Shown here piece after piece: positions 27,232-63,885 of a stretch of 64,000 nt of DNA. The notes beneath the pieces are model-generated. The model worked only from the letters and a program-made list of their open reading frames with translations. It made no database searches and was not told where the DNA came from. The DNA comes from Phycisphaerae bacterium (lineage in GTDB: Bacteria; Planctomycetota; Phycisphaerae; JAJVII01). Numbering within the stretch: the stretch's first letter is position 1; every line of letters starts with the position of its first letter. Made by a program: the position numbers and the translations under genes. The stretch is taken from positions 1 through 64,000 of the forward strand of contig JAJVII010000021.1 of assembly GCA_022072085.1 (NCBI GenBank). The letters run 5' to 3'.

Positions 27232-28419
27232 TCACCCGGCGCGGCGGCGACGGGAGGCGGCCAGTGCCAGGCCGCCCAGGCCCAGCAGGGCCAGGGTCGC
27301 CGGCTCGGGCACCTGGGCGACGGCCGTGAACTTGAAGAGCTGATTGCTGTTGCCGGCGCCGTTCCAGCCGCCGCCTTCGAGCACCAGCAGGTTGTCGGCG
27401 TCATACCAGAGCAGGGCATTGGCCCGGTCGCCCTGGGAGTGATTGGTCGGGCTGAACTGGTCGGCCGGGATGATGTCGCGGCAGTAGAGGCTCTGCAACC
27501 GCTTCCAGGTGTCGCCGCCCTGGTTGGCGTATTCCTCGATGGACCAGTTGTCGTAGGCAGTGCTGTAGCGGAGCACCCAGAGGTCGCCGTCGGCGTCGAA
27601 GCTGAGGCTGGAAATGGTCCCGGTGGTGATGGCGACGCCGCTCTCGTTCTGGAGGGTCAGGGCCGTCGGCGTGGTGGCCGTCCGCGTCCCGACGGTGTAG
27701 GTCGGCGTGCCGCTGTCGACGACCAGCCCGCTGCGGGCCGCCAGGTCGAAGTAGTAGACGCCCGCGCCGGCGGCGCCGAACATGCGGGCAACGTTGCCGC
27801 CCGACGGCGTGCCGTGAAGCTGGAGCCCGTGCAGGTGGTTGCCCCCGGTGCTGCTGGTCGCGATCTGGGTCATCGCCAGCGTCGCGCCGTCCTTGTCGGT
27901 CGGGTCATAGGCGCCGCTGCTGTTCTGGGGCTGGAGCTCCAGGATCGTCGTAACGGAACTGCCGATGTTGTCGTAGCTCCAGAACATGCTCGGGTCGCCG
28001 CCGCTGTCGCCGCCGTAGTAGGCGATCGACTGGCCGGTCTTGCCGCCCGTGCCCATCACGCCCCCGTTGAACGTGTCCACGGGATTGAGAAACGATGCAT
28101 CGCGCCACCGGCCGTCGACCGACGTGCCGTAGTAGTTGCTGCTGGTGGTCAGGGAGTAGCGGTAGTTGGTGAACGTGAGGTCGGCGATGTTGAAGTCCTG
28201 CCGGGCGACCGACGGGTAGTAGAGCGGCCGGGCGCTACCCACGAACGCCAGGTGACCCGCGCCGTCGGTGCTCATCGCGTTGCCCGACCAGCGGGTGCTG
28301 TCGCTGCTGCCCTGAGCGTAGGAGTCGTACTGGATTTCCGTCAGCCCCGCCCGCGCCGGCAGACAGGCCGCAAGCGTCAGGATCGCAGCCGCCGCACAAG
28401 TCGTCCCGAGTCGCAACAT
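27232..28419 (-). CDS. PEP-CTERM protein (propeller-like passenger)
   Basis: 395 residues. Signal peptide (MLRLGTTCAAAAILTLAACL, cut after ARA). The C-terminus is VPEPATLALLGLGGLALAAS followed by RRRRAG: the PEP motif, hydrophobic helix and basic tail recognised by an exosortase. The passenger has short repeated strands with DGAGHLAFVGS, SFDADGDLWVLRYS and WYDADNLLVLEGGG, spaced like a six- or seven-bladed propeller; it resembles secreted propellers only by impression. GGAGG precedes the ATG. A sigma-54 promoter lies 115 bases upstream. It is probably processed and attached to the outer envelope or matrix. Confidence 0.85.
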   Translation of the reverse strand: MLRLGTTCAAAAILTLAACLPARAGLTEIQYDSYAQGSSDSTRWSGNAMSTDGAGHLAFVGSARPLYYPSVARQDFNIADLTFTNYRYSLTTSSNYYGTSVDGRWRDASFLNPVDTFNGGVMGTGGKTGQSIAYYGGDSGGDPSMFWSYDNIGSSVTTILELQPQNSSGAYDPTDKDGATLAMTQIATSSTGGNHLHGLQLHGTPSGGNVARMFGAAGAGVYYFDLAARSGLVVDSGTPTYTVGTRTATTPTALTLQNESGVAITTGTISSLSFDADGDLWVLRYSTAYDNWSIEEYANQGGDTWKRLQSLYCRDIIPADQFSPTNHSQGDRANALLWYDADNLLVLEGGGWNGAGNSNQLFKFTAVAQVPEPATLALLGLGGLALAASRRRRAG

Positions 28420-28792
28420 GATCGACCTCCGTTCTCCCGCGAGTCTTCACGAAACGAGCCAGGAATTGGCCTGTCCCCGGTCCCCGGCGCCCCGGTTTGC
28501 CGCCCTCGGACGTGTGGACCGTTTGGCGATGCCGCAAACGGCGTGCCAGGACCGACTATCGCCCTCGACTTCTTCCCTTGGAGGCCATAAGCCGTTGGGC
28601 TTCCCCGCCTTGCAGTGCAAAATTCTCTCCGGAATAACTCCGCTGCCCGATTCCAGAGGCTGACGGTGTTGATTTGCATCAACATGGAACACGCCGCGCG
28701 TTGATTCCAGGCAACGCGCAGGCTCCGCGGGCGCGGATCGATGCGGCGGGCGCAAGGACCTCAGGCGGGCCCACTTCAGGCGGCCGGGGGGA
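28420..28792. other. Intergenic region with sigma-54 promoter and small dyad
   Basis: This 373-bp gap has no credible gene. It contains the sigma-54 site at 28534-28548 and a GTTGAT-TTGC-ATCAAC dyad at 28668-28683, about 128 bp upstream of the promoter. The dyad's position would suit an activator site, but nothing else ties it to this gene. Confidence 0.5.
28534..28548 (-). promoter_or_regulatory. Sigma-54 (-24/-12) promoter of PEP-CTERM gene 27232-28419
   Basis: On the minus strand: TGGCACG, four bases, TTGC, then G. This matches the RpoN consensus TGGCACG-N4-TTGC completely. The distance from the -12 C to the ATG is 115 bp. Confidence 0.88.
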
Positions 28793-29626
28793 TCAGGTCA
28801 GCAGTTGCTTGCTGCGGGTGAACTGGAGTTCGCGGTCGGCCAGGCGGCCTTCGAGGCAGGCCCGGCTGATCTCGATGACCTCCCGGGCCTCGTCGGGCGT
28901 CATCGTGCCGACGGTCACCAGGTCGATCGGCCGAAGCGTGGACCAGGCGAAGGGCAGCCCGACGTAGGGCATGACGCGGCCGGCGGCCATCGGCTTGATG
29001 GTCGTCACCGGATGGCGGGCGTTGTGGATCATCTTCTGCGTCCAATCGATCTCCAACGGCATGAGGAAACCGGCGGAGTTGTAGATGCAGATGTAGCTGG
29101 CGACGTCCAGCTCGGTCCGGTCGGCGGCGACGATGGCCTCGGGCAGGTGCGTGCTCAGGCCGGGGATCATGCCGCGCTGGCGGGCCATCTCGCTGATGCG
29201 GTCCATGTGCCGGATCGTCCGCGTCAGCCCGTCGTAAAGCCGGTCGGTCAGCGACGTATGCGGCCAGCAGAACGTCGCCCCGCGGGCGGCGCAGCGGTCG
29301 TAGGAGCGGGCGACCGAGTCCCAGTCCGGCCCGCTCTCGGTCAGGTCGAAGCCTGGCGTGCAGATCCAGTGCAACTCGGCGCCGACGGACTGGCGGGCCT
29401 GCTCGATCGCGTCCGGCAGCGGGTCCTGCATCGGGCCCATCGTCACGTTGACGCCGGCGGTCAGGAAGACCGCGAGCATCTCGGCCAGCTTGTCGCGGTC
29501 CTGGATGCTGCGGACCCACTGGCCCCGCGACTTGGTCTGGTGGGCATAGCCCAGCCACCAGTTGGAGCCGGCCACCAGCCGCGAGACACTCACGCCGCCG
29601 ATCTGCGTCCGGGGAAACTGATCCAT
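28793..29626 (-). CDS. Aldo/keto-reductase-like TIM-barrel protein
   Basis: 277 residues with no signal peptide. The opening (RTQIGGVSVSRLVAGSNWWL) matches the first strand of aldo/keto reductases. Later segments look like successive barrel strands: GVNVTMGPM, ELHWICTPGFDL, GATFCWPHTSL, GLSTHLPEAI, SYICIYN, VTTIKPMAAGRVMPY and LVTVGTMTPDEAREVIEI. The classical Asp-Tyr-Lys-His tetrad is not evident: the strand-2 Asp/Tyr positions look replaced. A cytoplasmic enzyme or an inactive relative is likely; the substrate is unknown. It lies among PEP-CTERM genes but has no sigma-54 site of its own. Confidence 0.55.
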   Translation of the reverse strand: MDQFPRTQIGGVSVSRLVAGSNWWLGYAHQTKSRGQWVRSIQDRDKLAEMLAVFLTAGVNVTMGPMQDPLPDAIEQARQSVGAELHWICTPGFDLTESGPDWDSVARSYDRCAARGATFCWPHTSLTDRLYDGLTRTIRHMDRISEMARQRGMIPGLSTHLPEAIVAADRTELDVASYICIYNSAGFLMPLEIDWTQKMIHNARHPVTTIKPMAAGRVMPYVGLPFAWSTLRPIDLVTVGTMTPDEAREVIEISRACLEGRLADRELQFTRSKQLLT

Positions 29627-29985
29627 CGCAAGACTCCCTGACGGCTGGCCGCCGCGTTACGAACCCGAACCATCATACGCCGACACGAACCGTCGCAGCC
29701 AGCAAAATGGGCGCCGGCCCGCCAGGCCGACGGGCAGTGTTGCGGCCGGTTATCGCTGGTGTCGAGAATTTGTACAGAATCCAGTGGAAATGACTGCGGC
29801 CAAGGCTCAATGGAATTTTTTCTATTCCTTCCATTAGCAGGACTTGCGGCCCAGACCGCGTTTCCTGGCACGCCATTTGCAGCACTTGTGAGGTCACCTT
29901 GAGGCATTTCCTGCACCCGTGAGACGCTTGTCGGCGGCCGTCCCAACTGAGCGAGAAGGGCCATTGTAATCGAAGGAGTCTGGCG
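29627..29985 (+). other. Regulatory region of the 29986 PEP-CTERM gene
   Basis: A 359-bp gap with no gene. It holds TGTACAGAATC at 29771-29781, AATGAC soon after, CAGGACTT at 29838-29845, the sigma-54 promoter at 29866-29880, and a 105-nt leader with GAAGGAG before the ATG. The same boxes occur at the same distances upstream of the gene at 36911, so they are candidate activator-binding sites. Confidence 0.7.
29866..29880 (+). promoter_or_regulatory. Sigma-54 (-24/-12) promoter of PEP-CTERM gene 29986-31986
   Basis: CTGGCACG, four bases, TTGCA: a full match to the RpoN consensus. The -12 C lies 106 bp before the ATG. Confidence 0.92.
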
Positions 29986-31986
29986 ATGAAGCGATTCATT
30001 TTCGCGGCCATGGCCGTTGGTCTGCTGCTGAGTTTGCACGGGGGGGCGCAGACGGCACAGGGGGCAACCTACTACGTCAACTACGGCGCCAGCGGCGGCG
30101 GTACGGGCTGGGGCGACGCCTATGGGTCGATCCTGTCGGCGCTCAATGCGATCGACACGGCTGACGACACCAGTGCAACGATCAAGGTCGGCCTGACCAC
30201 GGGCGGCAATTATTACGGCGCTTCCAGCAAGACCATCGCCTACGCCAGTTCCAACACGACGGCCGACATCAGCATCCTGGGCGGCTGGGATCCCAACACC
30301 GACACGGTCACCGGCGTCAGCAACATCGGCGGGACCGGCATGGGCCTGAGCCTGATGGTCAGCGGCGGGGCCGTCGGCAACGCCAACATCGGCAACATCA
30401 CGATCCGCGACTTCAACATCAACACCTCCGGCATCGGGCTGAACACCAACGCCAGCACCAACAACTCCAACTATGTCAACTTCGCCGTTTACGACAGCAC
30501 CCTCAGCACCTCGTCGCTGACGTCCAATGTCATCCGGACCTCGGCCAACGGCGGCAAGGTGGCCGGGCTGCTCCTGGACAACACCGACGTGAGCACGCCG
30601 GTCGGCAGCGTCATGTCGGCCATCTACGGCAGTTCCGCCAACGCCGGCGGGGTGAACACGTTCGAGGTGCGCAACGGCTCGACGATCACGGCGGCCGCCG
30701 ACGGCAGCGGCAACGGCAAGAATGGGGCGGCCGAGGTCATCGGCGCCCGGTTGGTCGCCTCCGGCGCGACCACCACCATCACCAACACCGGCGCCGGCTG
30801 GGGCGCGTATGTGGGCAACACCGCCTACGGGCCGTACGGCCACAGCGTCACCGACGTGACGATCACCTCGACCGGCGGGGCCACCGGCGGCGGGCTGAGC
30901 CTGGTCGCCGACGACTTCAGCCCCAGCGCGGTCGCCTCGGTCGTCTCCAACGTCACCATCACCACTGGGGGCGGGGCGGCGCTTCGGCTCTATGGCTGGC
31001 ATGGCAGCGGCAGCGATGCCAACGCGACGGACGTGGCCATCAGCAACGCGACGCTGACCGCCAACGGCGCCGCCGGCATCGCTCTCTACATCCAGTTTCA
31101 AAACGGCGGTATCTCGGACGTGGATGTCACCGACAGCACGCTGCACGGCGGATCGCAGGCCGTCTATCTCGCCGGCGGCGGCGGAAACCGCGGCGCCGAC
31201 ACGCTGGATTTCCTCCGCTCAACGCTCTCGGCCGGCGCGGCCGACGGCTCGACCAACTCGGCCAGCCCGGTCGTCCAGATCAACACCTACGACGACTCGA
31301 CGACGATGACCCTCGACCGCACCATCGTCCGCAACGGCGCCGGCGGGGTTCTCATCGCCCCGGTCACCACCCAGGGCAACGCCTTTCTCACGATGATCAA
31401 CTCGGTCATCACCGACCAGACCGGTTACGGTGTGCAACTGGATGCCCCCGGAAACAGCGGCGAGAGGCTGACCGCCACCAACTCCACCTTCAGCGATCTG
31501 GGCGGACCGGCCGCCGTCTTCGGCGACAACGGCACCAGCACCATCCTGGAGGCGATACTGAACTACGTCGCCTTTGTCCTGCGCGACCCCAGCGCAACGA
31601 TCTTTGAGAACCTGGACGCCAACCGTCAACTGGCGCTCATCGGTGACCTGAACGCCTTCTACGAGTATCTCACTTACTTCGCCAACACCGGCGGCGGCGG
31701 GTTGAACGACACCCTCACCTCCAGCCTGGACGCCCCGGCCGGCGACGCCATGCTCGACGCCGACGGCTACCACCTGCTGGCCGGCTCGCCGCTGGCCAAC
31801 CAGTACACCCCCTCCGGCGGCGACCCGCTGGTCGACATCGAGGGCGACATTCGCCCGGATGTCACGCTGGCCGACATCGGCGCCGACGAGGCCTACCCCG
31901 TCCCCGAGCCGGCGACGCTGGGGCTGCTGGCGATCGGCGGCGCGGGGATGGTCGCCGGCGCGTTCCGCCGGCGCCGCCGCGATTGA
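29986..31986 (+). CDS. PEP-CTERM beta-helix protein with choice-of-anchor-Q-like region
   Basis: 666 residues. The signal peptide (MKRFIFAAMAVGLLLSLHGG) is followed by TYYVNYGASGGGTGWGDAY, the typical start of right-handed parallel beta-helix surface proteins. The body is Gly/Asn/Thr-rich with many short strands. Near the C-terminus, YHLLAGSPLANQ and VDIEGDIRPD, then DIGADE, resemble the choice-of-anchor-Q region. The tag is VPEPATLGLLAIGG with RRRRRD. It should be exported, cut by an exosortase and placed in the extracellular matrix. The promoter, leader and signal peptide resemble those of the gene at 36911 although the passengers differ. A terminator follows. Confidence 0.9.
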   Translation: MKRFIFAAMAVGLLLSLHGGAQTAQGATYYVNYGASGGGTGWGDAYGSILSALNAIDTADDTSATIKVGLTTGGNYYGASSKTIAYASSNTTADISILGGWDPNTDTVTGVSNIGGTGMGLSLMVSGGAVGNANIGNITIRDFNINTSGIGLNTNASTNNSNYVNFAVYDSTLSTSSLTSNVIRTSANGGKVAGLLLDNTDVSTPVGSVMSAIYGSSANAGGVNTFEVRNGSTITAAADGSGNGKNGAAEVIGARLVASGATTTITNTGAGWGAYVGNTAYGPYGHSVTDVTITSTGGATGGGLSLVADDFSPSAVASVVSNVTITTGGGAALRLYGWHGSGSDANATDVAISNATLTANGAAGIALYIQFQNGGISDVDVTDSTLHGGSQAVYLAGGGGNRGADTLDFLRSTLSAGAADGSTNSASPVVQINTYDDSTTMTLDRTIVRNGAGGVLIAPVTTQGNAFLTMINSVITDQTGYGVQLDAPGNSGERLTATNSTFSDLGGPAAVFGDNGTSTILEAILNYVAFVLRDPSATIFENLDANRQLALIGDLNAFYEYLTYFANTGGGGLNDTLTSSLDAPAGDAMLDADGYHLLAGSPLANQYTPSGGDPLVDIEGDIRPDVTLADIGADEAYPVPEPATLGLLAIGGAGMVAGAFRRRRRD

Positions 31987-32029
31987 GACGGCGGCCCGCG
32001 AGTCCGCATCCGAACCGACTTCTCCCCGA

Positions 32030-32054
32030 AGCCCGGGCACGGCCGGCCCGGGCT
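32030..32054 (+). terminator. Hairpin terminator after PEP-CTERM gene
   Basis: A 9-bp perfect stem, AGCCCGGGC pairing with GCCCGGGCT around a 7-nt loop, then GTTCGTTTCG. The T-run is weak. Confidence 0.65.
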
Positions 32055-32268
32055 GTTCGTTTCGTATGACTCAGCCCGCGCCGGAGGGGCGTCGGGATGC
32101 CCGGGGCTCGGCGTCTGCCGCTGTTGCGTCCGAGCATCATTTCGCCCAGCCGTGTTGCCTTTTCGCATCAGAGCGGTTGTGGCGCCACCGGCGAACCGCT
32201 GCGACGCAGTATTCCTATCTAATTTATTAATAAGACTTTACGGGAATTCCCTGCCCCCCTTCCGCGTT

Positions 32269-32283
32269 TGGCACGCTGTTTGC
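32269..32283 (+). promoter_or_regulatory. Sigma-54 (-24/-12) promoter of PEP-CTERM gene 32476-36516
   Basis: TTGGCACG, four bases, TTGCA: a full RpoN consensus match. The -12 C lies 193 bp before the ATG. Confidence 0.92.
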
Positions 32284-32475
32284 ATGTATTTCCTATCAGC
32301 AAAGGTGACTAACTGAACGCAGCCTCGGGGCAGCACTCCCCCTACCACGCTCTTCCGTCACCTGCTCCAAGACATGATATCGACAAGCGGCGTGCGCGGT
32401 GCGCGCGGTCCGCAGTCCGTCCCGGCTGACAGTCCGCCTTGGCGACGAATCGCGAATTGCCTGGAGGAGTCCGCT

Positions 32476-35400
32476 ATGTTCAAACGCACGACTCTGACCT
32501 TCCTGGTCTGCCTGCTGACGCTCGGGGCGGGCTGGGCCCACGCAGATGTCTACACCTGGGGGCTGTCCGGCAGCGGCGCCTGGGCCACCGGGACCAACTG
32601 GACGCCGACCGGCCCGCCGACGTCGGCCGACACCGCCGTCTTCGACGACAGCACGGGCGCGGGGCGGACGATCACCCTGGCCACCAACACGATCGCCACC
32701 GTGAACGTCACGGGCAGCTACGGCTGGACCTTCAGCGGCAGCGGCTCGTCGCTGACCTTCGGCACGCTGTTCAGCTACGCCAGCAGCGGGCAGAGCTCGA
32801 TCAGTTCCCGGCTGCGCGGCACCGGCCAACTGAGCGTCACCGCCGGGCGCCTGGACCTCAACAACTCCACCAACGACTTCAGCGGGGGCCTGCTGATCGA
32901 CGGCGGACAGGTCCGCGTCAGCGGGGCGACCTCGGGCACGCCCCTGGGGGCGGGCCTGCTGCGGCTCAAGAGCGGCAGCCTCAGCGGCCAGGGGTCGCAG
33001 AACTACTCGATCATCAGCAACACCTTCCAGATCGAGGGCAACTTCACCTTCGGCGGCATGGTCGAGACGATCACCAACCAGTTCACCGGAACCGGCACGC
33101 TGCTGGGCAGCTACAACCTGACGGTCCCAACCGGGGCCGGCGTGCAGTTCAACAGCACCGCGGTCATCGGGGACGGCGGCAACGGCTACGGCTTCGCCAA
33201 GCTGGGCGGCGGCACGCTGACCACATCGGCCCTGAACACGTTCACCGGGCAGGTGGCCATCAAGGAGGGCGTCCTCGGCTTCACCGGCGGCAGCGCAACC
33301 GTCGGGTCGGCCAGCCCGTTGGGCAAGAACTCGACGATCCTGCTGGGCGACGCCGTCCTCGGGGCCGACGCCTCGCTGCTCAAGGGCAACGGCGCCGGCA
33401 CGCTGTGGCAGAACATCACCGTCGTCGCCGGCGCGGGCACACGCACCATCGGCACCAGCGGCCAGTCCAACGGCACCTATGCCGGCAACATCACGTTGAA
33501 CAAGAACGTGACCATCAACACTTTCAGCGGGGACAACGCCACCTTCAGCGGCCAGATCACCGGCGTCGGCGGCATCACCAAGACCGGCACCGCGACGGCC
33601 ACCTTCTCCGGCGACAACAGCTTCCAGGGCGCGGCGGACCTGACCGCCGGCACGACGATCCTCTCGACGTCGGCCAATGCCCTGAGCACCAACGCCCTGG
33701 GCGGCACGGTGACCGTCCAGAGCGGCGCCATCCTCCGCTACCAGGTCGACATCAGCCGAAATATCACGCTCAACGGCGGCACGCTCATCCCCGGCGACGC
33801 CGGCAACAACATGTACAACAACTCCGGCAACCTGACCGTGACCGCCCCATCGACCCTCGGCGGCAGCGGCGACGGAACGAGATGGCGGGCCGTCTCCGGC
33901 CTGGTTTCCGGCGGCAGCCTGCTGACGGTCAACAACACCTCGCACGCCAGCACGCTCCTGTTCACCCATGTCGACAACTCGCACAGCGGCGGGCTGCTGA
34001 TCATCAATGGCTCGCTGGGGGCCGGGGCGGCCGGTTCGCTGGGCACGGGCCCGGTTCAGGTCGGCGACGCCACCGGCGTCGGCGCCCTGCGGTTCTACGA
34101 GGATCTGCCGGCCGCCAATAATCGCCCCAGTTCCATCGTCGTGAACGCCAACAGCGAAGTCAGCATGAACACCACAGCCGCCGTGACCATGCCGATCACC
34201 CTCAACGGCGGGTCGTTCTGGGGCGGCACCCGCGGCGGCGGCGTCCGCACCGCCGGCGGAATGACCGCTGGCACCACGCACGGCCTCAACATCTACTCCG
34301 GCGCCCTCACGCTGGCGGCCGACTCCTTCGTCGGCGTTTCCGGCGACGGCAGCGACAAGCTCACCCTCAACGGCCAGATCGTCGACGACACGCCGGCCCA
34401 CGACTTCAAGGTGACCTACTACTCCGGATCGACCACGCAGGGCATCTGGCTGGGGTCGGCCAACAGCTACGGCGGCGGCACCGAGATCAACGGCGCCCTG
34501 GTCGTCACCGCTGCGACCGGCGGCCTGTCCAGCGGACCGGTGGTCGTCTCCCGCATGGGGCCGGGCGCCTATCCGGGCAACTACACGTCGATCGTTCAGA
34601 ACCGCGGCATCCTGCGCACCACCGTGGACGGATCACTCACCTCCGCTTCCAGCGTCTCGTTCACCGCCGACAGCCTGTATGACATCCGCTCGATCGAAAG
34701 CAAGGTTGTCTCGCTGGGTTACGGCGCCGCCATCACCCGCGGCGCCGGGTCGGCCCCGATCGTCTACAGCGGCGCGGGGCAGAACGTCGCCCTGTCGCGC
34801 GGCGCCATCATCGACCCCAGCGCCCCCGAGCCGACCCGCACCGAGGTGGCTGCCCTGGGCGGGACCGGCAGCGACTTCGGCCTGTTCCGCGGCCGCACTG
34901 TCGCCGAGTCCGGCACGTGGTCCTTCGGCAACGACGGCAGCTCGACGCTCTACCGCGGACTGGCCGCCACGACCGTCGACTTCACCTTCACCGGGACGGC
35001 CAACGACGTGGCTTCCGGCACGCCTGGCGTCAGCTTCTACTCCCAGGCAGCCCGCACGCTGACCATCGGCACGACCGGCGCCGGTGCGGCCATCAACAGC
35101 AGCAAGCTGATCCTCGACGGCGCGGGCAGCTTCGTCTTCGCCGGGTCGCTCAACACGCTGCCCGGGACGATCCAGCAGAACGGCGTCTGGATGGTGCGGT
35201 TCAACGACGCCGGCGGACTGGCCAGCGGCAAGACCCTCAACGTCAACGGCGGCTGGCTCGACCTGAACCATGCCGGGGCCCTGGCGGCCGGGTCGGCCGT
35301 GAACGTCAACAACGGCGGCATCTTCTACCTCGACCAGACGCTCACCAGCGGCACGGTGGCCGTCAACAACGGCGGCGGGCTCTACCTGACCGGCGACCAG

Positions 35401-36516
35401 TCCCAACTGGGCGCGGCCGCCTGGACCTTCGCCGCCGGCTCGCAGATCTTCCTGGGCGTCAACCTGACGGCCGCCCTGCCGGGCTCGACCGTCGGAAACT
35501 CGGACATCGTGCTGCGATCGTCGAGCACGGTTTCCTTGAGTTCCGCCGGCCTGGCGCTGAGCGAGTCGACGCGCCTGACCGTGGCGCCGACCTCCATCGG
35601 CGGCGCCCAGACCGCGACGCTGAGCACGGGCAACCTCTCCCTGGTCGGCGGGCAGACCTTCGGCCGACTGACCGCCCTGACCGGCGGCTCGCTGGTCGTC
35701 AGCACAGTCGTCAACTTCACGGGCGGCAAGCTGATCGTCGGCGACGTGAACGACTTCCGCGTGATCAGCCAGATGAGCACGCCGGTGTACTACATGGCCG
35801 GACAGGCCGGCCTGGTGCAGTTGTCCAGCACGTCCAACCAGATGGCCGCCATCGAGATTCAGAAGGGCACGCTGCGGGTTGACGCCCTGGCGCACCTGGG
35901 CGGAGCGACCGACATCAACCTGGTCGCCGGCGGCACGCTGCGGCTGGACTACAACACTCCCGCGTGGACCGGCGCGCTGCACGGCACGGGAACCGTCCTG
36001 ATCGGCGACGCCGCCAGCGGCACGAGCACGCTGACCCTGAACACCGGCACGACCGTCAGCCCGGGCAACAGCGCGGGCGTGATGGACTTCACCGGCAATC
36101 TCGCCTTTGGCGCGGGGACCTCGACGCTGAACATCGAGGTGCTCGGCGGCGGGGCCGTCGCCGGCACGGACTACGACGCGCTGCACGTCACCGGCACGCT
36201 GACCGGCCTGTCCAATGTGGACCTCGTCATCACCTTCGACACCGGCCTGTTCGACGTCGACCTGCTGGGCGACACGCTGACGATCGCGACCACCAGCAGC
36301 GACCTGAGCGGCCTGCTCACCGGCACGACGGGTTTCAAGTCGGTCACGATCGTGACGCCCGGCTACTCGGCCGACCTGAACTACAACAACGGCAGCATCA
36401 CCCTGACCAACCTCACCGGTCCCGAGCAGCCCGTCCCCGAGCCGGCGACGCTGGGCCTGCTGGCGCTGGGCGGAGTCGGCCTGATCGCCGGAGCATCCCG
36501 CCGCCGCCGCATCTGA
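32476..36516 (+). CDS. Giant PEP-CTERM protein with autotransporter-type beta-strand repeats
   Basis: 1346 residues from the ATG at 32476 (GGAGGAG upstream; the ORF-track start is 34 codons early). Signal peptide to GWAHA. The body carries repeats of the passenger-associated type (for example TKTGTATATFSGDNSFQGA then TAGTTILS, and YGFAKLGGGTLTTSALNTFT), which build long beta-helices in autotransporters. There is no C-terminal beta-barrel; the protein ends VPEPATLGLLALGG plus RRRRI, so export and anchoring must rely on an exosortase. Composition is Gly/Thr/Ser/Asn-rich with almost no Cys. It is the largest gene in the window and probably an adhesin or matrix protein. Confidence 0.92.
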   Translation: MFKRTTLTFLVCLLTLGAGWAHADVYTWGLSGSGAWATGTNWTPTGPPTSADTAVFDDSTGAGRTITLATNTIATVNVTGSYGWTFSGSGSSLTFGTLFSYASSGQSSISSRLRGTGQLSVTAGRLDLNNSTNDFSGGLLIDGGQVRVSGATSGTPLGAGLLRLKSGSLSGQGSQNYSIISNTFQIEGNFTFGGMVETITNQFTGTGTLLGSYNLTVPTGAGVQFNSTAVIGDGGNGYGFAKLGGGTLTTSALNTFTGQVAIKEGVLGFTGGSATVGSASPLGKNSTILLGDAVLGADASLLKGNGAGTLWQNITVVAGAGTRTIGTSGQSNGTYAGNITLNKNVTINTFSGDNATFSGQITGVGGITKTGTATATFSGDNSFQGAADLTAGTTILSTSANALSTNALGGTVTVQSGAILRYQVDISRNITLNGGTLIPGDAGNNMYNNSGNLTVTAPSTLGGSGDGTRWRAVSGLVSGGSLLTVNNTSHASTLLFTHVDNSHSGGLLIINGSLGAGAAGSLGTGPVQVGDATGVGALRFYEDLPAANNRPSSIVVNANSEVSMNTTAAVTMPITLNGGSFWGGTRGGGVRTAGGMTAGTTHGLNIYSGALTLAADSFVGVSGDGSDKLTLNGQIVDDTPAHDFKVTYYSGSTTQGIWLGSANSYGGGTEINGALVVTAATGGLSSGPVVVSRMGPGAYPGNYTSIVQNRGILRTTVDGSLTSASSVSFTADSLYDIRSIESKVVSLGYGAAITRGAGSAPIVYSGAGQNVALSRGAIIDPSAPEPTRTEVAALGGTGSDFGLFRGRTVAESGTWSFGNDGSSTLYRGLAATTVDFTFTGTANDVASGTPGVSFYSQAARTLTIGTTGAGAAINSSKLILDGAGSFVFAGSLNTLPGTIQQNGVWMVRFNDAGGLASGKTLNVNGGWLDLNHAGALAAGSAVNVNNGGIFYLDQTLTSGTVAVNNGGGLYLTGDQSQLGAAAWTFAAGSQIFLGVNLTAALPGSTVGNSDIVLRSSSTVSLSSAGLALSESTRLTVAPTSIGGAQTATLSTGNLSLVGGQTFGRLTALTGGSLVVSTVVNFTGGKLIVGDVNDFRVISQMSTPVYYMAGQAGLVQLSSTSNQMAAIEIQKGTLRVDALAHLGGATDINLVAGGTLRLDYNTPAWTGALHGTGTVLIGDAASGTSTLTLNTGTTVSPGNSAGVMDFTGNLAFGAGTSTLNIEVLGGGAVAGTDYDALHVTGTLTGLSNVDLVITFDTGLFDVDLLGDTLTIATTSSDLSGLLTGTTGFKSVTIVTPGYSADLNYNNGSITLTNLTGPEQPVPEPATLGLLALGGVGLIAGASRRRRI

Positions 36517-36558
36517 CGCCGCGGGTGTGGGTCGCCAGCGCCCATCCGATTCTTCTTC

Positions 36559-36588
36559 AAGGCCCAGTCACCGCCGTGGCTGGGCCTT
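36559..36588 (+). terminator. Hairpin terminator after the giant PEP-CTERM gene
   Basis: Stem AAGGCCCAGTCAC pairs with GTGGCTGGGCCTT (one mismatch) around a 4-nt loop, followed by GTGTGTT. Confidence 0.7.
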
Positions 36589-36791
36589 GTGTGTTGGCCG
36601 GCGGCGCTGCTTCCGGCGGCCGGCAGGGCTGCATGGGGAGTTCTGGCCAAGCCCCCTCGACAGCGTTGCGAAAACGCCTCAATGGGGGTGAAAAAATGTA
36701 CAGAATCGGCCTGCAATGACCGACGACAACATCTCAAAATACAATTGTTAGCTCATATCTCATCAGGACTTACAATTTTATTGGCGTTCTA

Positions 36792-36806
36792 TGGCACGGA
36801 ATTTGC
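36792..36806 (+). promoter_or_regulatory. Sigma-54 (-24/-12) promoter of PEP-CTERM gene 36911-38380
   Basis: ATGGCACG, four bases, TTGCA: a full RpoN consensus match. The -12 C lies 105 bp before the ATG. Confidence 0.92.
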
Positions 36807-36910: not shown

Positions 36911-38380
36911 ATGAAGCGATCCATCATAGCGGTCGTGGCCATTTGTCTGCTCGCCAGTATGGTTGGGCTGTTGCAGACGGCGCGGGCTGCCGAGGTCACG
37001 CTTTCGGCTGATGCCGACCTCGGCAGTGGCGGCGCGCTGGGGTCGATCGCCCCGACAGGGACAGGGACAACGGCAGACCCCTACGTCTACGCCTTCTCCT
37101 CCGGCGGGCTTGACGTCGGATCGTTCAAGTCCTTCGCCAACACCGGCAACAGCTACACACTGAATCTGGCCGGCTTCGACATCACCGGCGTCAGCGGCGG
37201 CGTGTCGCTCTCGTCGTCGCGATCTGCCTACGGCGCGGCCGTGCCGGCCGGCAACCTGACGATCCTGAACGCGGGCAACATCGCGGTCGGCGCGATCGAA
37301 ACCTACAGCAACGCCAGCTACTGGGGGCAGAACAACAACTCGCCCGCCGGCAACCTGACGATCGGCGACTCCGGCCAGCGCGTCGGAAACATCCGGACCG
37401 ACGCCATCGACGTGCACGCCACCTTCAACGGCAGCTCCGGCCTGATCACCATCTTCGGCGGCGGGGACGTGCTGATCCAGACCTCGGGCGGGACGGCCGG
37501 TGACGTGAACGGCGCCAACTGGACCGGCGCCAAAGGAATGAACGTCAACCACGACGGCGCGTTCAACGTCGGCACGGTCATGATGTACACGACGTCCTAC
37601 GCCAACAGCGCCGGCTCGATCGTGTTCAACGGCGACGGACTGGGCAACGGCGCCAGCGGCGCCTTCACCGCGACCAGTCTCCAGACCTACAGCGGGCACG
37701 CCGACACCTCTAACCTGGCCGGCGACATCTCCATCAGCGGCTATCAGTCCATCACCGTCACCGGCGACATCCTGGCCCAGAGCCTGTCGGCTGACAAGTG
37801 GAACACCGACCCCCACGGCGGCGACCTGACGGCGTCGGCTGCGGGCGACATCAGGCTGCTCGGCCAAATCAACCTGGCCACCTCGCGCGGGACCGCGTAC
37901 AGCGGACACATGGAACTGACCGCCACCAACGGCGGCGGCATCGAGCTGGGCGACCAGGCCAGCCCCGGCGCCGTCGGCCTCGACCTCAACGGCTTCGAAT
38001 ACCTCTACTTCAACTCCAGTCGAATGACCGACGGCAATCCGACCACCAACGGCGAATCGGTCATCTACGACAACATCCTCAATTTCGCCCCCGGGGGCGA
38101 CGCTTCGACGCCCAACGCCCAGTTGCGGGTCGAGCAGGATGTCGACATCATCTACTACTACCACGACGATACGGTCAACGCTTCGCTGTTTGCGGGCAAC
38201 GACTTCGGCCTCGACCCCGGCACCTACTACATTCAAAGTAACGGGGCGATCGGGCTGGGGCTTCTGGCCCCGCTGCCCACAGGCGCCGCCGTTCCCGAGC
38301 CGATGACGCTGAGCCTGCTGGCGCTGGGCGGAATCGGCCTGATCGCCAGGGCCTCCCGCCGCCGCCGCGCCGCCGCATGA
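36911..38380 (+). CDS. PEP-CTERM protein, Gly/Asn-rich beta-solenoid type
   Basis: 489 residues. The signal peptide (MKRSIIAVVAICLLASMVGL) is close to that of the gene at 29986. The passenger has regular short strands such as GNLTILNAGNIAVGAI, GDISISGYQSITVTGDIL and GDIRLLGQINLAT, typical of a filamentous-haemagglutinin-like or other beta-solenoid. The C-terminus is VPEPMTLSLLALGGIGLIAR plus RRRRAAA, a PEP-CTERM tag. GAAGGAGG precedes the ATG. A strong palindromic terminator follows. It is likely an exported matrix component; its ligand is unknown. Confidence 0.88.
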   Translation: MKRSIIAVVAICLLASMVGLLQTARAAEVTLSADADLGSGGALGSIAPTGTGTTADPYVYAFSSGGLDVGSFKSFANTGNSYTLNLAGFDITGVSGGVSLSSSRSAYGAAVPAGNLTILNAGNIAVGAIETYSNASYWGQNNNSPAGNLTIGDSGQRVGNIRTDAIDVHATFNGSSGLITIFGGGDVLIQTSGGTAGDVNGANWTGAKGMNVNHDGAFNVGTVMMYTTSYANSAGSIVFNGDGLGNGASGAFTATSLQTYSGHADTSNLAGDISISGYQSITVTGDILAQSLSADKWNTDPHGGDLTASAAGDIRLLGQINLATSRGTAYSGHMELTATNGGGIELGDQASPGAVGLDLNGFEYLYFNSSRMTDGNPTTNGESVIYDNILNFAPGGDASTPNAQLRVEQDVDIIYYYHDDTVNASLFAGNDFGLDPGTYYIQSNGAIGLGLLAPLPTGAAVPEPMTLSLLALGGIGLIARASRRRRAAA

Positions 38381-39590: not shown

Positions 39591-40592
39591 ATGCAACGGG
39601 ATGTCTTCCACTTCGACGGCACGCACCGCCCGCTCAGCCGGGCGGCCCGCTGGCTGGGATGGGCCCTGCCGGTCGCCGGCCTGCTGCTGCTGATGGCGCT
39701 GGGCGGCTGCACGCCGAGCGTGCGGCAGTTGCGGGCCCAGGGCCGCTACTACGTCAAGCCGTCGGTCGCGGTGCTCAACTTCGAGAACGCCGGCTCCGGC
39801 GGCACGGGCTGGGACATCGGCGACGGGCTGGCCGACGTGCTGACCGACGAGCTGGTCAAGACCGAGCGGTTCCACGTGATGGAGCGTCCTCAACTGGGGG
39901 CGGTGATCCGCGAGTTGCAGCTCCAGCAGGGCGGCGCGACCCGACAGCAGGGCAAGAAGGAGTTCGGCCGACTCAAGAACGTCGAGTTTCTCATCAAGGG
40001 CAAGGTGACCGACTTCGGTCACGTCGCCGGCGGCGGGGTCTGGGCGAAGATGGACATGCTCAACGTCTTCGGGGCGCGGAACAAGGCCGTGCTTCGCATC
40101 GTCTATTACGTCGTCGACGTCGAGAGCGGCGAGATCGTCGCGTCGCGCACGGTCAGCGAGTCGGCGCCCGCGGGCGAGGCCTCGGTGCAGGCAGCCTACA
40201 AGGGCGTCACGTTCGGCGGGTCGATGTTCTACCGCACGCCGCTGGGCAAAGCCACCGCCGCCGCCACGCGAGAGGCCGTCGCCGCCATCTGCGACGCCAT
40301 CGCCCGCCAGCCCTGGCAGCCCAGGATCGCCCTGGTCGACGGCGAGCGGATTGTCATTAACGGCGGGACCGACCGCGGGCTGGCCGCCGGCGGGTTCTTC
40401 CGCGCCCTCCAGCCCGGGACCGCCATCGTCGACCCCGACAGCGGCGACGTGCTGGACCACCTGCCCGGACAGCAGATCGGCCAGATCGAAGTCGTCGAGG
40501 TCCACGACCGCTACTCCGTCGCCCGCAGCGTCAAGCGGGCGGACTACCAGATTGGCCAGCGGCTCACCGCCATCGTCGTGGACGAACCCTGA
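39591..40592 (+). CDS. CsgG/curli-assembly-like lipoprotein
   Basis: 333 residues, with GAGGAA before the ATG. Its N-terminus is unusually long for a signal peptide (about 40 residues), ending MALGGCTPS, so it is a lipoprotein. KPSVAVLNFENAG, DIGDGLADVLTDELVKTERF and VMERPQLGAVIREL are the CsgG-family core, and IKGKVTDFGH follows. The C-terminal third adds NGGTDRGLAAGGFF and GQIEVVEVHDRYSVA, a small beta domain also seen in FlgT-like proteins. CsgG relatives form secretion pores or envelope scaffolds. There are no curli genes nearby. Confidence 0.78.
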   Translation: MQRDVFHFDGTHRPLSRAARWLGWALPVAGLLLLMALGGCTPSVRQLRAQGRYYVKPSVAVLNFENAGSGGTGWDIGDGLADVLTDELVKTERFHVMERPQLGAVIRELQLQQGGATRQQGKKEFGRLKNVEFLIKGKVTDFGHVAGGGVWAKMDMLNVFGARNKAVLRIVYYVVDVESGEIVASRTVSESAPAGEASVQAAYKGVTFGGSMFYRTPLGKATAAATREAVAAICDAIARQPWQPRIALVDGERIVINGGTDRGLAAGGFFRALQPGTAIVDPDSGDVLDHLPGQQIGQIEVVEVHDRYSVARSVKRADYQIGQRLTAIVVDEP

Positions 40593-63008: not shown

Positions 63009-63764
63009 TCACGGCCGGCGGCGTCGGCGAACAGCCGGCCCGACCAGGGCCAGCCCCCCCAGCACCAGCAGCGAGAGCGTCGCCGGCTCGGGGACCGCGG
63101 TGACGGCATACATGTTGTGCAGCGTCGCCCCGGTGAAGGTCGGAACGATCGTCATCGACCGGATGGCCGGCTCGCCGCCGCTGCCGGTGATGGCCCAGGT
63201 GACCGCGGCCTTGCTCGAAGGCGAGCTGGCCGACAGGACCGTGCCGATCTGGTTGGTGTAGTTGTCGTCGGAGTAGAGCTTGATGGTCAGCGTGTGCTGC
63301 GCGTAGCCGCCGATGAGCGTGAAGAAGGAGACGGCCTCGACGGGATCGTCGAACTGCACCCGCCAGGCCGCCGGCGTGTCGTACCACCAGTCGTAGACCT
63401 TATACCCGCTGCGCGAGTCGTGGCGGAGCTGGGTGTAGTTGCTGACGCCCGCGTTGTTGATGTCGAACGAGGCGATCGAAAACCCTGTGTCGCCGCTGCT
63501 GAAGTGATCGTAGGGCGACATGCCGCCCGGGGCTGTCACGTTGATGTTCGCGTTCCAGGCCGAGTAGCCGTCGCCGAGGTTCGTGTCAAAGTCGACCGAG
63601 AGGTCCGCCGACTCGAATCCCGCCGGCGTCGTGCTCATGAACGTGGCGAACCCGCTGCTGCCGGTCGAGCCGGTGGCCTGGAGGATGTAGTCGGCCTGCG
63701 CGGTTCCGACCGCCAGCATCGCGACGGCCGCCATCGCCAGCAGAGAATGGAATGAGGTCCGCAT
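63009..63764 (-). CDS. PEP-CTERM protein (fifth)
   Basis: 251 residues from the ATG at 63764 (GGAGGG upstream; the ORF-track start is 39 codons early). Signal peptide MRTSFHSLLAMAAVAMLAVG, cut after AQA. A compact beta-rich passenger (ADLSVDFDTNLGDGYSAW, AWRVQFDDPVEAVSFFTLIG, TLTIKLYSDDNYTNQIG) resembles PEP-CTERM proteins with a single jelly-roll-like domain. C-terminus VPEPATLSLLVLGGLALVGP plus RRRRRP. A sigma-54 promoter lies 107 bases upstream, matching the other four. Located about 25 kb from the main PEP-CTERM cluster. Confidence 0.86.
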   Translation of the reverse strand: MRTSFHSLLAMAAVAMLAVGTAQADYILQATGSTGSSGFATFMSTTPAGFESADLSVDFDTNLGDGYSAWNANINVTAPGGMSPYDHFSSGDTGFSIASFDINNAGVSNYTQLRHDSRSGYKVYDWWYDTPAAWRVQFDDPVEAVSFFTLIGGYAQHTLTIKLYSDDNYTNQIGTVLSASSPSSKAAVTWAITGSGGEPAIRSMTIVPTFTGATLHNMYAVTAVPEPATLSLLVLGGLALVGPAVRRRRRP

Positions 63765-63870: not shown

Positions 63871-63885
63871 GCAAAGGCCATGCCA
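63871..63885 (-). promoter_or_regulatory. Sigma-54 (-24/-12) promoter of PEP-CTERM gene 63009-63764
   Basis: On the minus strand: TGGCATG, four bases, TTGCT. One base differs from TGGCACG; the GG and GC essentials are intact with normal spacing. The -12 C lies 107 bp before the ATG. A CATAT/ATATG dyad (63931-63953) containing TTTGT-GA-ACAGAA lies about 57 bp further upstream; it shares half-sites with TTTGTACAGAA at 29769. Beyond it, to the window edge, I see no gene. Confidence 0.78.

Follow-up and report, generated by a model that had tools for sequence, protein, structure and literature searches.

Predicted sigma-54 control of PEP-CTERM genes in a planctomycete, with a dyad as candidate enhancer

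Background

PEP-CTERM proteins are exported proteins with a C-terminal sorting tag. They are numerous in planctomycetes, where little is known of what they do and how they are regulated. The closest described system is found in Proteobacteria, for which Haft et al. reported in 2006 the regulation of PEP-CTERM/EpsH genes by sigma-54 with the PrsK/PrsR pair (PMC1569441). Among the genomes of that study the motifs are common to Proteobacteria only, and motif 1, of 17 nt and ending in TTTACA, lies at a mean of 63 bp before the -24 site (PMC1569441). RpoN-dependent transcription has been shown experimentally for one PEP-CTERM gene, pepA of Aquincola tertiaricarbonis (PMC9850573). A survey of sigma-54 regulons in 2025 includes promoters of Planctomycetota, among them those of chaperones and NtrC-family regulators, with no mention of PEP-CTERM or exosortase in its main text (PMC12316311). 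In the open-access papers searched we find no report of such control in planctomycetes. On the whole, this kind of control is established for Proteobacteria, and what is new here is the predicted planctomycete case with a different candidate enhancer, a dyad.

Results

Sigma-54 sites and PEP-CTERM genes in the window

The window analysed here is a stretch of 64,000 nt from a planctomycete genome (5.49 Mb in 72 contigs, 97% complete). It contains four exact copies of TGGCACG-N4-TTGC, against a mean of 0.02 in dinucleotide shuffles, which never reach four, and its sites have GG at -24 and GC at -12 with ten bases between, the criterion for sigma-54. The first-pass annotation had read mismatch-free sites before four PEP-CTERM genes, with three leaders of 105-115 bp and one of 193 bp. 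All of these sites, strands and lengths are confirmed, the leaders having 115, 106, 193 and 105 bp (Table 1). Its statement that no other gene of the window has such a site is right for exact sites; at one mismatch, however, the PEP-CTERM gene at 63009-63734, not listed in that annotation, has one as well. The C-terminal PEP-CTERM domain is found in all four proteins of the main cluster. Those at 27232, 29986 and 32476 pass the PF07589 gathering score of 20.7 bits, while the protein at 36911 has 18.2 bits, slightly under it, and passes TIGR02595. The protein at 32476 also matches PF12951 with 21 bits, under the cut-off of that model.

Homology is visible between the leaders of 29986 and 36911, so the four sites do not stand for four independent events. 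The segment TGTACAGAATC, common to the regions upstream of 29866 and 36792, was weighed as a candidate enhancer and dismissed, since it reflects the homology of both leaders. In addition, a CsgG-like protein is located at 39591-40592, a short way downstream of the PEP-CTERM cluster.

Table 1. Features of the predicted regulon. Coordinates are those of the window unless a contig is given; promoter-to-gene distances are counted to the start codon, beginning at the final base of the site.
Feature	Coordinates	Strand	Remarks
Sigma-54 -24/-12 promoter TGGCACGCCGTTTGC	28534..28548	-	exact; 115 bp to ATG of 27232-28419
Sigma-54 promoter TGGCACGCCATTTGC	29866..29880	+	exact; 106 bp to start of 29986
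Sigma-54 promoter TGGCACGCTGTTTGC	32269..32283	+	exact; 193 bp to start of 32476
Sigma-54 promoter TGGCACGGAATTTGC	36792..36806	+	exact; 105 bp to start of 36911
Sigma-54 promoter TGGCATGGCCTTTGC	63871..63885	-	one mismatch; 137 bp to PEP-CTERM gene 63009-63734
PEP-CTERM protein, 395 aa	27232..28419	-	PF07589 30.7 bits
PEP-CTERM protein, 666 aa	29986..31986	+	PF07589 23.7 bits
PEP-CTERM protein, 1346 aa, autotransporter-like (PATR-like) repeats	32476..36516	+	PF07589 22.8 bits
PEP-CTERM protein, 489 aa	36911..38380	+	TIGR02595 18.1 bits (cut-off 16)
Fifth PEP-CTERM gene of the window	63009..63734	-	PF07589 over cut-off at C10:63018-63098 (minus)
Proximal element CCAACGGCTTATGG (consensus gAAAtgAcTTAcGa)	28585..28598	-	50 bp before TGG
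Proximal element AGCAGGACTTGCGG	29836..29849	+	30 bp before TGG
Proximal element ATAAGACTTTACGG	32230..32243	+	39 bp before TGG
Proximal element ATCAGGACTTACAA	36762..36775	+	30 bp before TGG
Candidate enhancer dyad TGTTG-N8-CAACA, perfect	28667..28684	.	centre 127 bp from TGG of 28534 site
Second dyad, degenerate (2 mismatches)	28699..28716	.	centre 159 bp from TGG, 32 bp beyond the perfect dyad
Candidate enhancer dyad TGTTGCCTTTTCGCATCA, 1 mismatch	32153..32170	.	centre 107 bp from TGG of 32269 site
Second dyad TGTTGCGTCCGAGCATCA, 1 mismatch	32122..32139	.	centre 138 bp from TGG, 31 bp beyond the first dyad
Degenerate dyad, 3 mismatches, TGTTG half intact; weak	29738..29755	.	centre 119 bp from TGG, in phase
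Degenerate dyad, 3 mismatches; weak	36664..36681	.	centre 119 bp from TGG, in phase
NtrC-like response regulator	C56:18657-20033		receiver + sigma-54 AAA+ + Fis-type HTH (Pfam)

Sigma-54 sites in the whole genome

Overall, the genome holds 57 exact TGGCACG-N4-TTGC sites, against none for the reversed-pattern control, and about 86 PEP-CTERM matches over cut-off. Stretches were fetched around all motif and PEP-CTERM matches, plus some control stretches, and genes and their starts were called with a home-made codon model, a few PEP-CTERM genes being missed or split by the caller. Sites with at most one mismatch lie within 300 bp upstream of 47 among 97 PEP-CTERM candidates and of 20 among 1076 other genes (p=1e-40, odds ratio ~50), a contrast that is conservative because picking the stretches around motif matches inflates the background. 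One false PEP-CTERM gene, a regular-expression match at C20:27470, is counted in this comparison and dropped from the later counts. When the distance is extended to 620 bp, a site with no more than one mismatch precedes 52 of 86 PEP-CTERM genes (~60%; nearly all of the 86 over cut-off, a few by regular expression); the remainder includes 10 genes close behind a same-strand gene, 23 without a site and one at a stretch edge.

This enrichment is in accordance with the first-pass proposal of one regulon, the PEP-CTERM genes forming a regulon-like set, and the proposed use of the motif for finding further members also works, as the genome search does retrieve more. Neither of the two refuting outcomes named in that annotation is seen, as the site is enriched before PEP-CTERM genes and rpoN is present. 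The wording 'all' stands for the four PEP-CTERM genes of the main cluster, but does not carry over to the genome, where 52 of 86 have a site at up to one mismatch.

The bare sigma-54 motif alone is not specific to PEP-CTERM genes, exact copies being present before dnaK and an hsp20-like gene as well as before genes of response regulators and sigma-54 activators (names by sequence reading). Some sites were considered as non-coding targets and discarded. By reading, C3:91184 precedes merely a 22-codon signal-peptide-like remnant and C30:65524 is without an ORF of its own, both being relics, while those on C16, on C34 and at C8:75347 look like PEP-CTERM genes broken in assembly. Apparently frameshift-split PEP-CTERM genes, due to assembly error or decay, are seen at C16:73539-74910, C34:2032-3300 and C8:73824-75179.

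An upstream dyad and a proximal element

Reading of the upstream regions reveals an inverted repeat, TGTTG-N8-CAACA, mostly flanked by A/T (ATGTTG-N8-CAACAT). Perfect copies number 53 in the genome and 4 in the control. The fetched stretches contain 50 of them, of which about 45 lie upstream of a sigma-54 site, most of them before PEP-CTERM genes. The dyad is located about 96-172 bp upstream of the site, with centre-to-TGG distances clustering at ~96, 107, 118, 128, 139, 150 and 160 bp. These distances follow a period of 10.5 bp (R=0.62 for 50 sites, matched by 0 of 20,000 random sets; R=0.72 for perfect dyads, n=45, matched by 0 of 5,000), and a second copy often occurs 31-33 bp from the first. 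Dyads accompany 37 of 54 sigma-54 sites of PEP-CTERM genes and 3 of 18 sites before other genes. This shows that the dyad, and not the bare sigma-54 motif, marks the PEP-CTERM set, while about 30% of the PEP-CTERM sigma-54 sites have no recognisable dyad. Among the four exact sites of the window, those at 29866 and 36792 have only dyads with three mismatches; the site at 63871 has a one-mismatch dyad slightly past the window end. As described here, the dyad appears to be a new element, which resembles NtrC-type enhancers.

Between the dyad and the promoter, an EM motif search detects the element gAAAtgAcTTAcGa at 30-50 bp before TGG (log-likelihood 110.8, against 42-48 in shuffled segments). 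PEP-CTERM sites have higher scores for this element (p=0.007), although most of its training set came from these very sites, which weakens the comparison. IHF was considered for this element, and only the AA-N4-TTR core fits.

Dyad/sigma-54 targets also occur beyond the PEP-CTERM genes. A PilZ-domain protein is a conserved target (C9:13781 and, in a second genome of the order, L206:5486-5836, 67% identical), and a PilZ-like ORF is a target in G080 (L190), a genome of another class. The target at C37:25461-25763 encodes 83 aa without a Pfam match and lies beside a GAF-domain-like sigma-54 activator. At C45:39806 (minus), a perfect dyad and an exact sigma-54 site have no long gene behind them; an ORF of 35 codons (MTGGWWTNSGLSLGG...KPARG) and an RBS-like stretch can be read downstream. 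Exact sites without a dyad at chaperone genes, namely C23:9500 (dnaK), C33:77494 (hsp20-like) and L336 of the second genome (GroEL), are a separate sigma-54 branch.

The candidate regulator

Both rpoN (C12:73253, TIGR02395, 412.8 bits) and an exosortase (C8:85594-87459, EpsH plus DUF3485), which the first-pass annotation proposed to look for, are present in one copy each, together with 13 strong PF00158 matches for sigma-54 activators. The activator of most interest is the NtrC-like response regulator on contig C56 (Table 1). Directly upstream and overlapping its gene is that of a histidine kinase of 397 aa with PAS, HisKA and HATPase domains, and perfect dyads lie closely upstream of this operon. 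There is no sigma-54 site near these dyads, so control of the operon would be of another kind.

We then compared 80 loci with orthologs of the C56 activator (55-85% identity), nearly all of them in planctomycetes, Phycisphaerae included. Among the 70 loci with enough upstream sequence, 23 have a perfect dyad where the kinase gene starts, 900-1500 bp before the activator, and 44 have one when a mismatch is allowed, leaving 26 dyad-less. The rest of these loci holds only 15 perfect dyads in 566,694 positions. Boxes like TTGACA/TATAAT follow the dyad in many of the loci (by reading), and the HTH is strongly conserved, the orthologs retaining its motif INRTTL-KK. In L206 the C56-type pair has a PEP-CTERM gene and the PilZ gene as flanking neighbours, each with dyad and sigma-54 site. 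The presence of the dyad before C56-type operons in planctomycetes therefore points to the C56-type activator as the cognate regulator. The case is indirect but good, and the C56 protein is most likely what binds the dyad.

Distribution in planctomycetes

The one other genome of the order examined (G392) has eight composite sites, all eight before PEP-CTERM genes. Among the 21 exact sigma-54 sites in the stretches fetched from it, 12 lie before closed PEP-CTERM ORFs, and at others the ORF runs off the stretch; none of the 21 comes from L206, which has one-mismatch sites only. A relative of the receiver-less activator on C18 (73% identical) has a sigma-54 site and a one-mismatch dyad in this genome, and is a target there too. 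Elsewhere the strict composite pattern is rare, with only four other genomes matching in a sample of 392 of the phylum. PEP-CTERM matches, in contrast, are found in 186 of 198 genomes of the class, with 20-40 in many and often at least 40, while exact sigma-54 sites in these 198 genomes mostly number 0-10. The wiring looks lineage-specific, because most members of the class have many PEP-CTERM genes and few exact sites. This suggests that PEP-CTERM genes are common in the class and the sigma-54/dyad wiring is rare, seemingly confined to one family. The C56 operon is far more widespread than this wiring.

Two other genomes, G303 (f9) and G456 (f108), have one 15-mer of sigma-54 consensus many times over (TGGCACGCATTTTGC and TGGCACGCGAATTGC), in G456 often near contig ends. 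Since the identical 15-mer recurs, these sites are probably dispersed repeats.

Discussion

A model of the regulon and its alternatives

Based on what is read in the sequence, that is, promoter sites, dyads, their phasing, target identities, the kinase/activator pair, rpoN, the exosortase and the conservation of the design, we consider it quite probable that most PEP-CTERM genes form one RpoN regulon, with a dyad-bound C56 activator driven by the adjacent kinase. Each promoter would have as many as three elements. The near-perfect -24/-12 site would be joined by a proximal AA-N4-TTA element 30-50 bp upstream, perhaps the target of a DNA-bending protein, and, on the helix face of the promoter ~100-160 bp upstream, by either a single dyad or two. 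The PAS-containing kinase would activate the C56 regulator, which would bind the dyad, loop to the closed sigma-54 polymerase and open the complex with ATP, so that the sortable exported proteins are switched on together. In these steps we infer the identity of the dyad-binding protein, the dependence on RpoN, the looping and the role of the proximal element. The regulator probably also controls its own operon, via the dyad beside a sigma-70-type promoter, and the genes of the PilZ protein and of the second, receiver-less sigma-54 activator. In each of the two genomes of the family the latter (C18:38382; L345) has the dyad and the sigma-54 site, which suggests a two-tier cascade.

It is possible, though unlikely, that the regulon is real and a different one of the 13 activators binds the dyad, such as that at C18:38576-39538 or the GAF-domain one on C37. 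A perfect dyad and a sigma-54 site precede the C18 activator, whose relative in the second genome keeps the site with a one-mismatch dyad, and another pair of perfect dyad and sigma-54 site lies just downstream of the C37 activator; as perfect dyads thus belong to targets beside or encoding these activators, one of them could share the dyad. However, in many genomes the dyad recurs at a constant position ahead of the C56-type kinase, and in L206 targets flank the C56-type pair. The C18 activator itself looks like a target, and therefore like a second tier.

Even less probable is that the proteobacterial PrsK/PrsR system has been inherited or transferred and has diverged past the model cut-offs. 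Sigma-54 control of PEP-CTERM genes is indeed the known proteobacterial arrangement (PMC1569441), the C56 regulator is the best of the 13 activators on the PrsR model, and the TTA-C end of the proximal element recalls the TTTACA end of motif 1. But none of the 13 passes that model (TIGR02915, cut-off 502.6 bits), C56 having 418.7 bits and scoring better as AtoC (479.6 bits), and no kinase in the genome passes the PrsK model (TIGR02916, best 107.2 bits, cut-off 300), the C56 kinase having the length and domains given above. The dyad also differs from motif 1 in sequence and distance, and the latter was found in Proteobacteria only (PMC1569441). The first-pass idea that the planctomycete follows the same logic is thus not supported in the sense of PrsK-PrsR.

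Finally, it is hardly credible that the sites are non-working promoters, inherited baggage that PEP-CTERM genes took along, leaders included, when they were duplicated: the 29986 and 36911 leaders are homologous, but elsewhere the sequence between dyad, proximal element and promoter looks largely unrelated, with the elements staying and the spacing shifting in 10.5-bp steps, as selection on the elements would give, and unrelated genes (PilZ, the C18 activator) have the same design, kept in the second genome.

For the C56-driven RpoN regulon, we lean towards the view that sigma-54 control of PEP-CTERM genes evolved again, when an ancestral kinase/NtrC-like pair widespread in Phycisphaerae was recruited in this family to govern exosortase substrates by way of its own dyad, converging on the PrsK/PrsR of Proteobacteria. 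Independent recruitment in planctomycetes is a good case, not a proven one.

Through the shared enhancer-promoter code, dozens of scattered genes can be read as a single predicted regulon. Its candidate regulator has a name and is open to binding assays without the organism in culture. Sigma-54 control of likely exosortase substrates is thereby predicted beyond Proteobacteria, with different parts. The PilZ domain often binds c-di-GMP, and the PilZ protein within the regulon hints at a tie to a surface or matrix life style.

Comparison with known systems

The arrangement shares with the PrsK/PrsR system the long leaders, the -24/-12 site, a conserved upstream activator site and an NtrC-type regulator with a kinase. 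It differs in its host, a member of Planctomycetota, and in having no PrsK or PrsR by model cut-off. Its main upstream element is an 18-bp dyad ~100-160 bp away, in place of a 17-nt motif ~63 bp away; the proximal element at 30-50 bp is weakly TTAC-like beside the TTTACA of motif 1. For pepA of A. tertiaricarbonis, control was established by experiment for one proteobacterial gene, whereas here ~50 genes are predicted from sequence. The sites at dnaK and the hsp20-like gene are in accordance with the sigma-54 survey (PMC12316311). With NtrC/AtoC systems, the planctomycete case has in common the receiver, AAA+ and Fis HTH domains, tandem dyads about three helical turns apart, the dependence on the face of the helix and a dyad at the regulator's own operon; unlike in those systems, the dyad has another sequence and the targets are mostly predicted exosortase substrates.
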